From the NCBI RefSeq assembly GCF_934924865.1, contig NZ_OW235315.1, forward strand, positions 1,426,001 to 1,490,000: DNA of 64,000 bases, given 5' to 3'. Below, one piece after another: positions 26,333 to 31,360 of the stretch. The translations under genes and the position numbers were made by a program. The notes below the pieces were generated by a model. It worked only from the letters and a program-made list of their open reading frames with translations. It made no database searches and had not been told where the DNA came from. How positions within the stretch are numbered: position 1 is the first letter of the stretch; the number at the start of each line of letters is the position of its first letter. The stretch is from Tepidibacter aestuarii (lineage in GTDB: Bacteria; Bacillota; Clostridia; Peptostreptococcales; Peptostreptococcaceae).

Positions 26333-26722
26333 TTATTTCTGTAATAATTGCTTATGTTTTTCTATAAATTCATTTAAAGCCATGTTTGTAACTTGTATAA
26401 GAGAAAGGTTTTGTTCTTTTGCAATTTCTTCAAGGCCTATTTTTATATCTTCATCTACTTTAAATCCAAGAGGTGTTGGACGAAGTTTTTTTAATTTTTC
26501 ATCTATTTCTGATTTATATATAGTTTCGACTATGATTTTTTCGTTTGGGCCAGTTATATCTTCGTAAGTCCAACCATCAGGATTATATTTAGATTGCATA
26601 TCCATAAAATTTCTTTTTTTAGCTCTTAAATCTCCTGTTATATTGTCCTCGATTATGAAATACATCATTTTTTTCTTTTCTTTATAATTTTTATGTTCTT
26701 GATTTTCAAATAATATATTCAT
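26333..26722 (-). CDS. Uncharacterised protein with a ribbon-helix-helix-like C-terminus
   Basis: AAAGGGGTGGTTTA precedes ATG 26722. The 129-residue product has an N-terminal mixed region (MMYFIIEDNITGDLRAKKRN) and DGWTYEDITGPNEKIIVETI. It ends in PLGFKVDEDIKIGLEEIAKE-QNLSLIQVTNMALNEFIEKH, a strand-helix-helix pattern like a single MetJ/Arc-type DNA-binding unit. It may be a regulator or antitoxin, but no toxin gene is adjacent. An internal ATG-ATG pair at residues 19-20 is a weaker start. Confidence 0.5.
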   Translation of the reverse strand: MNILFENQEHKNYKEKKKMMYFIIEDNITGDLRAKKRNFMDMQSKYNPDGWTYEDITGPNEKIIVETIYKSEIDEKLKKLRPTPLGFKVDEDIKIGLEEIAKEQNLSLIQVTNMALNEFIEKHKQLLQK

Positions 26723-27092
26723 TAAACCACCCCTTTAGTTAATATATTATCAATCATATCATAAAAATTGGAAAATAAATACATATTTACGTTAATTTTA
26801 TAGAGTTTCTTAAATAAATATTTTTTGTTTAAGAATGGAATTGATGGTTACTTACAGACTTACCGGATTCTTTACAAGTATGTCGGAAAAAACAGATTCA
26901 AGTCTGTTAAGTTAATTTATTATCAAAAAATTGAATTAACAGCTAAAATATAGTGTTATTTCATTTTTGTTGAACATATAGATTGTTAATTCCTTTATAT
27001 GGTAAAATATAACTGAATTTATTTTATATAAAAAATAAAAATATAGATTTAAGGTATTTAAAGATAAAAAAGGATGATGGGGGGAATTAGAG
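26723..27092. other. Intergenic region without a gene
   Basis: Two overlapping hairpins occur near 26,858-26,920, one being CAGATTCAAGTCTG. The rest is AT-rich DNA serving as promoter space for the divergent genes. No promoter was assigned with confidence. Confidence 0.35.
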
Positions 27093-27701
27093 GTGGAAAA
27101 GGAGTTTTTACAAAAAGAGTTGGAAGTTTTATTTCAAGAAGCAGATAAAATAGATCAAAAGACATTAAAAATTTATAATAGAATGATAGGTAATCCCATT
27201 ACAATAGAAGAATTTTTACAAAAAACAAAAGAAGGATTAGGAAAAAAAGGATCTCAATTTATTACTTGCATAAAGATGATAGAAAAACTAAGAAAAGAAG
27301 AATTCTTTCCTTTGATGATAGAACTTGCGAGTGCATCTATAAACTCTATTCAAGTACAAACTATCTTTAAATCTACTGGATGTATACCCAAAAATATAGA
27401 GAAGTTAAGAAGTTCTATGACTGTTATTGTAAATAAAATGGAAGAACAGAAAGATACTGAAGTTCTTTTTCATGGAGGATGCTTATTATATAGAATTGTA
27501 ACGAAATGTCCTGAATTAGAAAACGAGTTGGAAAATCTTCGAGTTTATATAAGTGATAAAGAACTTCAAGATATTTTAATTAAATTTCAGAATATAGAAC
27601 GATGGGAAACGATAAATCATAGGGGAAAATCTAAGCAAGGATACTTAAAGAATGAAAAAGACTTTCTGAATTTTGCAATGAAATTTATGAAAATTCGATG
27701 A
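27093..27701 (+). CDS. Uncharacterised helical protein (202 residues)
   Basis: GATGGGGGGAATTAGAG precedes GTG 27093. The product is almost wholly helical and soluble, for example EFLQKELEVLFQEADKIDQK, GLGKKGSQFITCIKMIEKLR and KDTEVLFHGGCLLYRIVTKC. It has no signal or membrane segment and no motif I recognise. It is monocistronic and faces a convergent peroxiredoxin gene across a shared terminator. Confidence 0.6.
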   Translation: MEKEFLQKELEVLFQEADKIDQKTLKIYNRMIGNPITIEEFLQKTKEGLGKKGSQFITCIKMIEKLRKEEFFPLMIELASASINSIQVQTIFKSTGCIPKNIEKLRSSMTVIVNKMEEQKDTEVLFHGGCLLYRIVTKCPELENELENLRVYISDKELQDILIKFQNIERWETINHRGKSKQGYLKNEKDFLNFAMKFMKIR

Positions 27702-27712
27702 TTAAATAATAA

Positions 27713-27741
27713 AGCACCTGAAAAAATAACAGGTGCTCTTT
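27713..27741. terminator. Shared terminator of two convergent genes
   Basis: AGCACCTG and CAGGTGCT pair around an A-rich loop, with T-rich flanks on both strands. Confidence 0.7.
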
Positions 27742-27756
27742 GAATATTTGTATTAA

Positions 27757-28425
27757 CTAATATTTTCCTACATAATCCCAACCTATAGGAATTCCTTTTT
27801 CTCCTGGCTTCCAGTTAGCTGGAGCCCCTAAGCCAGTTTTTAAATTGTATTGTAGACCTTGTATTATTCTTAGAATTTCATTTATATTCCTTCCAACAAC
27901 TTGTGGATTAACTAGATAAGCCTGAATATTTCCATCAGGATCTATTATAAAAGCTCCTCTGTATGCGAATCCTTCTTTCCCGTTTAAAACTCCATACTTT
28001 CTAGAAACTTCTTGAGTTCTATCAGATAATAAAGGGTAGTTTATTTTTTGAGCAGAAGGAGATTCCTGCATAAAAATTTTATGAGAATAAATACTATCAG
28101 TGCTAATAGCGAGTACTTCAGTATTTAACTTTTCAAACTTATCATACGAGTCAGCAACTGCTGCAAGTTCAGTAGGTCAAACGAATGTGAAATCTGATCC
28201 ATAAAAAAATACTACTACCCATTTACCTCTATAATCTGATAATGAAACGTCTTTAGGTTCTCCATCCACTATACCCTTTAAAGTGAATTCAGGTGCAGGA
28301 TCACCTAAGTTAAAGCCTTTATCATAGTATAGAGTTTTTTTAGTACGCATATTAGATGTACGATTTTTTTTCATTGGTTTCATATATCTTTTTTGATTCA
28401 TTAAATGAAAATATGGATTGTACAT
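27757..28425 (-). CDS. prxU: Peroxiredoxin with TGA (apparent selenocysteine) at the peroxidatic position
   Basis: The frame is open from ATG 28425 (AAGGAGG eight bases upstream) to 27757 except for one TGA at 28177-28179. It falls exactly where the catalytic Cys belongs: [21 protein letters not shown], against FTFVCPTEL in AhpC/Prx proteins. Everything after it is intact and in frame: [32 protein letters not shown] and [13 protein letters not shown]. There is no cysteine in the rest of the 222 residues, and the usual resolving VCPA reads GAPA. The product would reduce peroxides with Sec and an outside thiol donor. Selenoprotein PrxU is known in Peptoclostridium acidaminophilum. A CAGC-AGTT-GCTG stem-loop 13 bases after the TGA could serve in a SECIS element. 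The basic N-terminal extension of about 33 residues is unusual. Alternative: a nonsense mutation. Confidence 0.85.
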
Positions 28426-28445
28426 ATACAATACCTCCTTGATAT

Positions 28446-28489
28446 TAGTATATTTCGGTTATATTTCTTTGCTACAATGAAATATACTA
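28446..28489. promoter_or_regulatory. Inverted repeat upstream of the peroxiredoxin gene
   Basis: TAGTATATTTC and GAAATATACTA are perfect 11-base arms 22 bases apart, between the divergent peroxiredoxin and unknown genes and just before the peroxiredoxin ribosome site. It could be an operator, for instance for a peroxide regulator, or a leader hairpin. It does not match a known box well. Confidence 0.45.
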
Positions 28490-28595
28490 TTGATTTGAAC
28501 ATGTGAAAATAGTATGATGAAATGTATGAAAAAAGGATTCAAAGTAGTATATAGTCAAAATAAAAGTCTACTAATAAAAATTGTGGAGGTAATAT

Positions 28596-29006
28596 ATGAA
28601 TATAGAAGAATTTTTAAATTTAAAAGTTGATATAAAAAAAAGAGAATCATTTGTATATAAAAATTGTTATCTATATGACTTAATAGAAAATTCTATTATG
28701 GATTCAGTTAATTTAGATATAAACAATTCTGTGTTTTCTAACATAGCTATAAGAGAGGCTGTCCATACATTTCCTGAATATAGAGAAGACGAGTATCCTG
28801 AATCAGATATTCTTGCAAAGTATGGAGTTGTAATAGAAGATAGATACGATTTAATACTATCATTTTGTTATTTAGATGATCAATATAAGTATATTAATAT
28901 ACTTAATGAATTGAGTGAGTTAAATGAAAGTGAAGCTATAACGATGCTTAATTATTATTTAGAGGAAACTTATAATAAATATCATACGGTTTTAGTGATT
29001 GATTAA
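28596..29006 (+). CDS. Uncharacterised acidic protein (136 residues)
   Basis: TGTGGAGGTAATAT precedes ATG 28596. The product is soluble and acidic: YKNCYLYDLIENSIMDSVNL, AVHTFPEYREDEYPESDILA and LNELSELNESEAITMLNYYL. No membrane segment or known motif is visible. It diverges from the peroxiredoxin gene across 170 bases and may share its regulatory repeat. Confidence 0.55.
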   Translation: MNIEEFLNLKVDIKKRESFVYKNCYLYDLIENSIMDSVNLDINNSVFSNIAIREAVHTFPEYREDEYPESDILAKYGVVIEDRYDLILSFCYLDDQYKYINILNELSELNESEAITMLNYYLEETYNKYHTVLVID

Positions 29007-29032
29007 CAATTAGTATTATAGAAGATTACAAT

Positions 29033-29070
29033 AAGCGACAGTGCACATCTACTTTAAAGCATTGTCGTTT
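29033..29070 (+). terminator. Possible terminator
   Basis: AAGCGACAGTGC and GCATTGTCGTTT pair with one or two mismatches; the T-run is weak. Confidence 0.45.
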
Positions 29071-29343
29071 AACACTATGCTTATAATTAATATAAAATCA
29101 ATACTTACTTACATAATCCTACCAAAAAAAGACCACTATCCATTCTCTAAAACTCACATAATTAGAATTAAATTGAAATAATGATATAATCAAGTTGTGA
29201 TTTCATAAGTGAAAATCCATGGCATACAAAATGGATATATTAAATATTTAAAATGGATGGAGTTGTAATTAGGTATATTGAATAAAAGCAATATATATGA
29301 AATAATATATTGAAGAATAAAAATATTAAAGGAGACATGTTTT

Positions 29344-29391
29344 ATGAAAAAATATAATTATAATGAGCTGGTAGTTAAACTTAATAAATAA
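29344..29391 (+). CDS. Possible 15-residue leader peptide before the MutS2-like gene
   Basis: AAAGGAGACATGTTTT precedes ATG 29344; the frame MKKYNYNELVVKLNK ends at TAA 29389. Its stop codon lies inside the first arm of a switchable stem described in the next entry. The good ribosome site and placement suggest a regulatory upstream frame, unless it is a relic of a lost gene start. Confidence 0.35.
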   Translation: MKKYNYNELVVKLNK

Positions 29392-29464
29392 GGAGTTTAA
29401 CTACAAATAATAATTCCTTATTTATTAAGTCAATTAGTATAAAAGACTAATAAATAAAGGAGAA
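29381..29464 (+). promoter_or_regulatory. Leader with mutually exclusive stems, one covering the MutS2-like ribosome site
   Basis: Arm A TTAATAAATAAGGA (29,381-29,394) is perfectly complementary to arm B TCCTTATTTATTAA (29,415-29,428). Arm B can also pair, with one bulged A, to arm C TAATAAATAAAGGA (29,449-29,462), which contains the ribosome site of the gene starting at 29,471. A-B pairing frees the site and B-C pairing hides it. A ribosome on the 15-codon frame, which ends within arm A, would favour B-C. The regulatory role is inference. Confidence 0.45.
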
Positions 29465-29470
29465 ATATAA

Positions 29471-31360
29471 ATGAATAAAGATACATTTGAAAAATTACAA
29501 CTAAACGAGTTAAAAGAAATAATAAAAACTTATTGTGCAACTTCACTTGGAAAAGACCTTGTAGATAAGTTATATCCTAGTGGAAATATTGATGTAGTAA
29601 AAAGAAGGTTAAATGAAAATGAAGAAGCTAGGAGTATAATACAATCTAGTAATCATATTCCTTTAGAAGGTTTATCTAATGTTAATTCAATTATAGATAA
29701 GATTGAAAAAGGAATGGTTATATACCCAGATGAACTGATACGCATGGAAGATTTTTGTAGAGGTTGTAAAAAAATAAAAAGTTTTATGATAGATAAAGAA
29801 TTTTATTCACCAACACTAAGTTCATACGCCTCAAATATAACAGAGTGTGAAAATATAGAAAGTGAAATAAAATACTGCATAAAAGGAAATAAAGTAGACT
29901 CACAAGCTAGTAAGGAACTTAAAAAAATAAGAAGAAATATAGTATTAACAGAAAGTAAAATAAAAGAAAGATTAAACAAATTCTTAACATCATCAACAAA
30001 TAAAAAGTATATTCAAGAATTTATAATAAGTAAAAGAGATGATAGGTATGTTATACCTGTAAAATCATCATATAAAAATGAGATTAGCGGAATAGTATTA
30101 GATACATCTTCAAAAGGAAATACAGTTTTTGTAGAACCAAATAGTGTATCTAAACTTAGTTTGGAACTTATTAGCTTAAAATCAGAAGAATCTGTAGAAG
30201 AATATAAAATATTATCTTATTTAACAGAACTAATATTTGGAAAAATAACACAAATAAAATTAAATATTGAGATAATAGCTGAATATGACATGGTATTTGC
30301 AAAAACTAAATACAGTCAAAATATAAATGGGGTTACACCCAAAATAAATGATATAGGTTATATAAAAATAATTAATGGAAAACATCCTCTTTTAAAAGGA
30401 GATGTTGTACCTCTTGATTTTGAAGTAGGGAAAAATTGTAGAAGCTTAATAATAACAGGACCTAATGCAGGAGGAAAAACTATTACATTAAAAACAGTAG
30501 GACTTTTGACATTAATGGTTCAGTGTGGTTTTGATATATGTGCAAGTGAAGATACTCATATGAGTGTCTTTGAAAATATATTTGTCGATATAGGTGATAA
30601 TCAGAGCATAGAAAATGCCCTTAGTACATTCTCCTCACATATAAAAAATATTGCACAAATAATGGATTTGTCAAATAAATCTACTTTGATTTTATGTGAT
30701 GAGATTGGAAGTGGAACAGAACCTAATGAAGGATCTGGCCTTGCTATTGCTATTCTTGAAGAATTCTATAAAACGGGATGTATAACAATAGCATCTACTC
30801 ATTATGGTGAAATTAAAAAATTCGCATCACTTCATCCTGAATTTGAAAATGCAGGTATGATGTTTGATAAAAATACTCTAGAACCAATATATAGGCTTAC
30901 TATAGGAACATCTGAAGATAGTAATGCACTTTTTATATCTAAGAAGATGGGAATAAAGGATAAAGTGTTAAAAAGAGCTAAAGAGTATATAAATGATAAA
31001 AACTATAATTTAGATATAGTCAAAAAAAGTAAGAAATCTTCTTCTAAAGAAACAGATACAAAAGATACATTAAGTGAAATATCTATTTATGATGTAGGGG
31101 ATAGAGTTAAGCTATTAGATAAAGATGACTTTGGAATAATCTATAAAGAGGTTGATAAATTTAACAATGTACAAGTTTTATATGATGGAGAATTTATAGA
31201 AGTTAATGTTAAAAGAATAAGACCTAATTTAAAAGCTGAGCAATTATATCCAAAAGGATACGATATAGATAGTTTATTTACAAGTTATAAAGAACGAAAA
31301 TTAGAGAAAGATATTAAAAGAGGATCTAAAAAAGCTTTAAAGATGATTTTTAAGAAATAG
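29471..31360 (+). CDS. MutS2-like ATPase without an Smr nuclease domain
   Basis: AAAGGAGAAATATAA precedes ATG 29471. The 629 residues comprise an N-terminal MutS lever/clamp region, a helical middle (about 130-240), and an ATPase domain: GPNAGGKTITLKTVG is Walker A near residue 337, then ILCDEIGSGTEPNEGSGLA is Walker B and ASTHYGEIK the H-loop. The tail holds a KOW-like stretch (YDVGDRVKLLDKDDFGIIYK) and ends KKALKMIFKK. Full MutS2 is about 780 residues and ends in an Smr endonuclease domain; that is absent here with no sign of frameshift. MutS2 relatives suppress recombination or split collided ribosomes. This short form may keep only the ATP-driven clamp. A full-length paralog may exist elsewhere. 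Confidence 0.85.
   Translation: MNKDTFEKLQLNELKEIIKTYCATSLGKDLVDKLYPSGNIDVVKRRLNENEEARSIIQSSNHIPLEGLSNVNSIIDKIEKGMVIYPDELIRMEDFCRGCKKIKSFMIDKEFYSPTLSSYASNITECENIESEIKYCIKGNKVDSQASKELKKIRRNIVLTESKIKERLNKFLTSSTNKKYIQEFIISKRDDRYVIPVKSSYKNEISGIVLDTSSKGNTVFVEPNSVSKLSLELISLKSEESVEEYKILSYLTELIFGKITQIKLNIEIIAEYDMVFAKTKYSQNINGVTPKINDIGYIKIINGKHPLLKGDVVPLDFEVGKNCRSLIITGPNAGGKTITLKTVGLLTLMVQCGFDICASEDTHMSVFENIFVDIGDNQSIENALSTFSSHIKNIAQIMDLSNKSTLILCDEIGSGTEPNEGSGLAIAILEEFYKTGCITIASTHYGEIKKFASLHPEFENAGMMFDKNTLEPIYRLTIGTSEDSNALFISKKMGIKDKVLKRAKEYINDKNYNLDIVKKSKKSSSKETDTKDTLSEISIYDVGDRVKLLDKDDFGIIYKEVDKFNNVQVLYDGEFIEVNVKRIRPNLKAEQLYPKGYDIDSLFTSYKERKLEKDIKRGSKKALKMIFKK

Follow-up and report, generated by a model that had tools for sequence, protein, structure and literature searches.

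The 64,000-nucleotide stretch of the Tepidibacter aestuarii genome analyzed here (the window) contains a peroxiredoxin gene on its minus strand whose reading frame is interrupted once, by a TGA at codon 83 in the context FTFV-U-PTEL (Table 1). A preliminary description of this DNA had reported the TGA, at the position of the peroxidatic Cys, as the sole interruption of the frame, and translation bears this out; the description had not stated the strand, and the plus strand at 27757..28425 contains numerous stops. The protein matches the PF00578 (AhpC/TSA) profile over the whole domain with 146.7 bits (curated cut-off, 26). In an AlphaFold2 model the mean pLDDT is 85.7, with most of the core above 90 and residues 1-30 at a mean of 45-47. 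As described earlier, the whole chain contains no Cys, and the place of the resolving Cys in solved 2-Cys enzymes is taken by Ala201, which supports the earlier proposal of an enzyme working with one Sec. At the active site, Thr80, U83, and Arg156 are present, and Gly76 replaces the Pro in the first place of the signature; Arg156, which we take to be the active-site Arg, is invariant in 42 aligned proteins, and Thr80 is found in at least 90% of them.

Table 1. Features of the Sec-peroxiredoxin locus, in window coordinates
Feature	Position	Strand	Remarks
Sec-peroxiredoxin CDS	27757..28425	-	222 residues; stop TAG 27757-27759
Shine-Dalgarno AAGGAGG	28434..28440	-	8 nt upstream of ATG; read by eye, then scored
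N-terminal extension, residues 1-37	28315..28425	-	Tyr/Asn-rich in the family; low model confidence; dN/dS 0.44-0.82
Gly76 codon, place of Pro in PxxxTxxC	28198..28200	-	Alignment
Thr80 codon, Thr of TxxC/U	28186..28188	-	Alignment
TGA, predicted to be read as Sec83, peroxidatic position	28177..28179	-	Translation and comparison with homologues
bSECIS-type hairpin CAGC-AGUU-GCUG	28152..28163	-	17 nt from TGA to loop
Arg156 codon, probable active-site Arg	27958..27960	-	Invariant in 42 aligned proteins
Ala201 codon, place of C-terminal resolving Cys	27823..27825	-	Alignment with solved enzymes
8-bp inverted repeat AGCACCTG/CAGGTGCT, possible terminator	27713..27737	unstranded	Just past the stop; found by eye, absent from the scan results

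The flanking ORFs at 27093-27701 (202 aa) and 28596-29006 (136 aa) match no Pfam family. The 136-aa ORF is shared with two other Tepidibacter-type genomes, and a few other neighbors recur in one Tepidibacter-type relative; at orthologue loci outside the genus, none of the other neighbors of the window gene was matched. A scan for the sigma-70 consensus returned 8 matches vs 5.8 expected, which is near chance. In comparisons of the window gene with those of Tepidibacter mesophilus and a second relative (G003), dN/dS was 0.03-0.07 from residue 38 to the TGA and 0.07-0.09 after the TGA, in line with the earlier remark that the stop-free stretch after the TGA is well conserved, and was higher in the N-terminal extension (Table 1). 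These ratios indicate that purifying selection acts on the gene on both sides of the TGA.

To place the TGA among homologues, we used the best 80 of the 195 loci returned by a protein-similarity search of the genome collection. The codon at the peroxidatic position was TGA in 14 and TGC or TGT in 66 of these 80 loci. Because the TGA occurs in 14 of these loci and the sequence after it in the window gene is under constraint, its presence is not a matter of chance. All eight distinct genes with the N-terminal extension that were found without requiring a TGA (the window gene, L018, L103, L019, L020, L105, L106, and L107) carry it; five further extended genes (L188, L190, L191, L193, and L194) came from a search pattern that includes the TGA and hence do not count as evidence for its conservation. 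Among the 15 closest database proteins (P0002-P0016), the Sec position is occupied by Trp in 14 and by Cys in one (P0010), and the Trp in the 14 would reflect TGA read under code 4. P0010, which falls within the Sec clade and bears Cys, has retained the AAVA that the hairpin encodes in its relatives, and is likely a Sec-to-Cys reversion. Four database records (P0017, P0018, P0023, and P0033) begin downstream of the Sec position, and three more of 123-136 aa (P0021, P0025, and P0029) have the same downstream-only appearance by length and coverage.

Folding of the bases after the TGA, which the preliminary description had proposed as a check for a bSECIS, was unremarkable for the single sequence (170 of 200 shuffles folded as well), whereas comparison between genes revealed a conserved and covarying hairpin. 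RNAalifold on 10 sequences gave one 4-bp stem with the loop AGUU, 17 nt after the UGA. Of 40 TGA-peroxiredoxins, 33 have a hairpin of the form CNGC-AGUU-GCNG and 7 lack it, whereas it occurs in none of the 81 Cys-peroxiredoxins compared. Pair 18-27 of alignment A2 (32 sequences) is AU in 23, GC in 5, UA in 3, and GU in 1 with 0 unpaired, and its covariation score of 0.218 was reached by none of 500 shuffles; the remaining three pairs are invariant and, hence, uninformative on covariation. The third bases of the four hairpin codons are identical in a mean of 7.5 of 8 sequences vs 4.86 of 8 at 28 other fourfold sites, one of which reaches 7 of 8. We note that conservation of the hairpin region may in part act at the protein level.

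According to passages of PMC13188914, the bSECIS model has a loop of 3-9 nt with a G in loop bases 1-2, a stem of 4-16 bp, a loop located 16-37 nt after the UGA, and an energy of at most -7.5 kcal/mol. The window hairpin agrees with the rules for loop (AGUU), stem (4 bp), G (second base), and spacing (17 nt); its energy of -5.3 kcal/mol (-6.8 for a 53-nt piece) falls short of the limit. Taking the best hairpin per gene that satisfies the rules, the mean was -7.8 in TGA genes vs -4.3 in Cys genes (p 8e-8). An Rfam scan of 26500-29500 gave matches far below gathering scores and, thus, no family for the hairpin. A 26-base pattern consisting of the TGA and the start of the hairpin had 62 matches, spread over 57 of the 297 genomes that were sampled from the order, while the reversed control gave 0, and a peroxiredoxin context was seen at each of the 40 pattern loci inspected (L157-L196, which include copies of earlier loci); the earlier statement that such proteins are known from a few clostridia was therefore an understatement. 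The same hairpin together with a TGA-peroxiredoxin was also seen in four loci (L041, L084, L088, and L093) of MAGs labelled Desulfobacterales, Deltaproteobacteria, Cloacimonadota, and Spirochaetes, which suggests transfer, an old origin, or mis-binned contigs.

All four genes of the Sec machinery, for which a search had been recommended, are present in the window's own genome (G000, two contigs). selC scored 72.2 bits (cut-off, 47) with the anticodon TCA, and selB 383 bits (cut-off, 242); selA and selD adjoin selB and were named from translation and position, not by profile. SelD itself has an in-frame TGA (MTTSAG-U); its gene (L017 14234-13197, minus strand) is called short by plain ORF finding. 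The genome also encodes two further TGA-peroxiredoxins, L101 (G000:C1:3026734) and L099 (G000:C1:2351340), as well as one Cys-peroxiredoxin and one weak match. L101 has the context FTPV-U-GTE, retains a C-terminal Cys, and is without the CNGC-AGUU-GCNG hairpin.

These observations bear on whether the TGA is a sense codon. In a decayed gene, the TGA would be a true stop, giving a pseudogene or a product in two pieces, and indeed the standard code ends the frame after codon 82 and the downstream-only public records (P0021, P0025, and P0029 probably among them) fit such a picture. However, purifying selection flanks the TGA on both sides, all extended genes recovered without a TGA requirement have the TGA, the hairpin is specific to TGA genes, the genome has the full Sec machinery, and the short records look like start calls forced by the TGA, so that we regard decay as highly improbable. 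We consider it just as far-fetched that read-through places some other residue (Trp, for example) at the TGA or that the TGA stands erroneously for TGT/TGC. While Trp is what 14 of the 15 closest database proteins display, this residue probably stems from code 4, Trp would be unable to act as the peroxidatic residue, the one remaining protein has Cys at this position, and the TGA is common to independent genomes. Instead, the conserved TGA, the sel machinery, the TGA-specific hairpin, and the purifying selection after the TGA make it very probable that the gene encodes a one-Sec peroxiredoxin in which UGA codon 83 is decoded by the cell's own SelA, SelB, SelC, and SelD by means of the short hairpin. 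Weighing against this are the low stability of the window hairpin, its absence from seven TGA genes, the invariance of three of its four pairs, and the loss of the signature Pro. The earlier description as a probable selenoprotein is likewise supported by the machinery, the retention of the TGA in orthologues, and the covarying hairpin.

From features that can be read in the sequences themselves (conserved TGA, hairpin, homology, clade, and machinery), we infer Sec insertion, peroxidase activity, and the type of reductant as follows. The hairpin, with its loop 17 nt downstream, would direct the insertion of Sec at UGA codon 83 by SelA/SelB/SelC/SelD. The selenolate, aided by Thr80 and Arg156, would attack the peroxide and be converted to Se-OH. 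Because there is no Cys in the chain, Se-OH would need to be reduced by an outside thiol, possibly thioredoxin, glutaredoxin, or a small thiol.

In the comparison with PrxU that had been suggested, the hairpin is shared, but the window protein misses the family cut-off and falls in a separate clade. Against NCBIfam NF040737, which we take to be the family called PrxU, the window protein scored 190.3 bits (cut-off, 270), five database relatives 157-191, and L099 185, so that none of the seven clade members scanned attained the cut-off, while the positive control L091 scored 394.9. We therefore rejected the assignment of the window protein to PrxU. A tree built from 74 chosen proteins places the window clade, with a support of 99/95, apart from the PrxU clade; the former comprises 13 extended TGA genes, four unextended TGA paralogues, and 14 Trp-read and one Cys database proteins. 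Two further TGA groups (L109/L138 and L101/L140/L141) are placed among Cys proteins. The tree is rooted at the midpoint and is compatible with one or two origins of Sec for the two clades that share the hairpin.

The position seven residues before Sec is Gly in 11 and Pro in 29 of 40 TGA genes vs Pro in all 79 Cys genes. The 11 Gly genes are ten of the window clade and L084, and database members of the clade also have Ala, Ser, Thr, or Pro at this position; in passages of PMC13188914, PxxxTxxU is called highly conserved in Sec-peroxiredoxins. The extension, previously put at about 33 residues and described as basic, is 37 residues long. In 20 proteins, it contains 17% Tyr and 11% Asn vs 5% and 5% in the core, and the first 40 residues of five PrxU-type proteins contain no Tyr. 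Its net charge is +9, +5, and +9 in the Tepidibacter-type members and nearer neutral in most others, so that the strongly basic character holds for the window protein and its nearest relatives but not family-wide. Similarly, although the window protein does combine a Cys-free chain and a basic extension, this combination is not a mark of the family. Absence of Cys is not shared family-wide, since the extension includes a Cys in 4 of 13 extended genes for which DNA was available. These comparisons support that the window clade is distinct from PrxU and is marked by Gly in place of the signature Pro and, mostly, by a Tyr/Asn-rich extension. We found neither this clade nor a spore selenoprotein in the open-licence PMC papers searched.

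Upstream regions were scored for SigK-like promoters, with a -10 element that we presumed to be CATANNNTA. The SigK promoters of C. difficile have AC at -35, according to passages of PMC3789822. The window's own upstream region scored 6 of 8, which is at chance (277 of 300 shuffles as good). Summed over eight orthologues, the score was 54 vs a shuffled mean of 48.4 (reached in 0 of 300), and this was carried by five orthologues outside Tepidibacter. Sites with a score of at least 7 of 8 were found in 10 of 11 orthologue upstream regions, including five new orthologues, vs 2 of 35 upstream regions of PrxU genes as controls (Fisher 1.7e-7); this p value is optimistic, as five sigma patterns were tried, the lineages are related, and upstream G+C is 25% in the orthologues vs 29% in PrxU genes. 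For this set, 16 locus ids were skipped as copies, genes with <110 bases upstream were dropped, and so were those sharing an identical 30-mer downstream of the TGA, by which L103 stands for both the window gene and L018. When other genes from these genomes served as controls, the background was higher than with PrxU genes, as 6 of 41 scored at least 7 (means 5.8 and 6.05). Patterns for SigE, SigG, SigF, and SigA gave no clear separation from PrxU, the lowest uncorrected p being 0.025 (SigE). Three of four upstream regions of the unextended paralogues scored 5, 5, and 6 of 8, although one of them (L192) scored 7 when a different start was chosen.

All 12 sampled genomes with an extended gene had a spoIVA match (which in G080 consists of two overlapping pieces that contain stops) vs 5 of 45 other pattern-positive genomes; the carriers span four families, and phylogeny may explain the contrast. 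A search for yabG was positive in 9 of these 12 genomes. By eye, the region upstream of cotJ provided no useful SigK template. Gene starts resembling MYNP(Y/F) occur at three places in the genome besides the window gene, none of them evidently a coat protein gene, and the reversed pattern gave four matches. No sporulation gene was identified among the seven neighbors scanned, three of which gave no family.

During these searches, we noticed that yabG, which encodes a sporulation protease, is divided into two pieces, matching profile positions 1-230 and 226-280 and separated by about 3-12 kb, in 8 of the 297 genomes of the order: L208 1086-2495 (G158), L209 3053-4504 (G080), and L210 1789-3219 (G121), as well as in G096, G130, G139, G149, and G166. 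The first piece is followed by a gene for a large serine recombinase in L208 (by Pfam) and in L209 and L210 (by sequence likeness), and the arrangement looks like a skin-type intervening element. In G132 (C28:23887-134153), the two pieces of a split spoIVA (profile positions 1-404 and 400-492) lie about 109 kb apart, possibly because of another such element.

Taken together, it is plausible that the Sec-peroxiredoxin is a spore-associated selenoprotein. More specifically, we tentatively propose, as a possibility rather than a probability, that the clade represents a spore-coat selenoprotein synthesized by the mother cell at a late stage of sporulation, that the Tyr-rich tail carries it on the spore, and that Sec dispenses with the signature Pro. 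The same enzyme could, like PrxU, be an ordinary antioxidant of vegetative cells that is unconnected with the spore, a reading that falls just short of an even chance. It would account for the chance-level SigK score of the window promoter region and for neighbors among which no sporulation gene was recognized, and the different taxonomy of carriers and PrxU holders may underlie the distribution of spoIVA; the high frequency of SigK-like sites in orthologue vs PrxU upstream regions and the presence of spoIVA in every sampled carrier argue against it. That the protein is mainly a redox sensor or an oxidative cross-linker, for example via dityrosine, instead of a peroxide scavenger would fit with Gly at the signature Pro in TGA genes and with the Tyr content of the extension, but is unlikely given that the Thr, the Arg, and the overall Prx sequence are retained. 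If the link to sporulation is true, selenium would be tied to the spore.

One system for comparison lies in the same genome. L099 (G000:C1:2351340-2351879), an unextended Sec paralogue, is 56% identical to the window protein and shares U-PTEL, Gly for Pro, and the hairpin, but is without the N-terminal extension; in the tree, the L099 group is sister to the rest of the window clade. With the 2-Cys AhpC/Prx1 enzymes, among which the best 60 of 144 solved relatives matched at E 3e-52 to about 3e-37, the window protein has the fold family and the active-site Thr and Arg in common, while it differs in having Sec for Cys, Gly for Pro, and no resolving Cys. A precedent for a peroxiredoxin domain in a SigK-made coat protein is CotE of Clostridioides difficile, which passages of PMC3789822 describe as a spore-coat peroxiredoxin-chitinase made late in sporulation under SigK. 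Unlike CotE, the window protein has 222 aa and no chitinase family in the Pfam scan; in many genomes of the same family, a Cys-type match falls in a frame of about 580-710 aa, and we take these frames to be CotE-like from their length.

PrxU was reportedly first described by Sohling et al. in 2001 in Eubacterium (Peptoclostridium) acidaminophilum. Like PrxU, the window protein is of the AhpC/TSA type with predicted Sec at the peroxidatic position, and its gene has the CNGC-AGUU-GCNG hairpin 17 nt after the TGA; also, the PrxU-type genes compared here encode no C-terminal resolving Cys. The occurrence of this hairpin in PrxU-type genes and its absence from the 81 Cys genes suggest an RNA signal that dictates protein sequence (Ala-Val-Ala). 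The window clade, several public records of which begin after the TGA, would be a second clade of Sec-peroxiredoxins defined by sequence and would provide a natural test of whether Sec relaxes the requirement for the Pro that is invariant in the 79 Cys relatives compared. It is set apart from PrxU by U-PTEL in the window protein vs U-ATE, Gly vs Pro in the signature, and a Tyr-rich vs a Tyr-free N-terminus.
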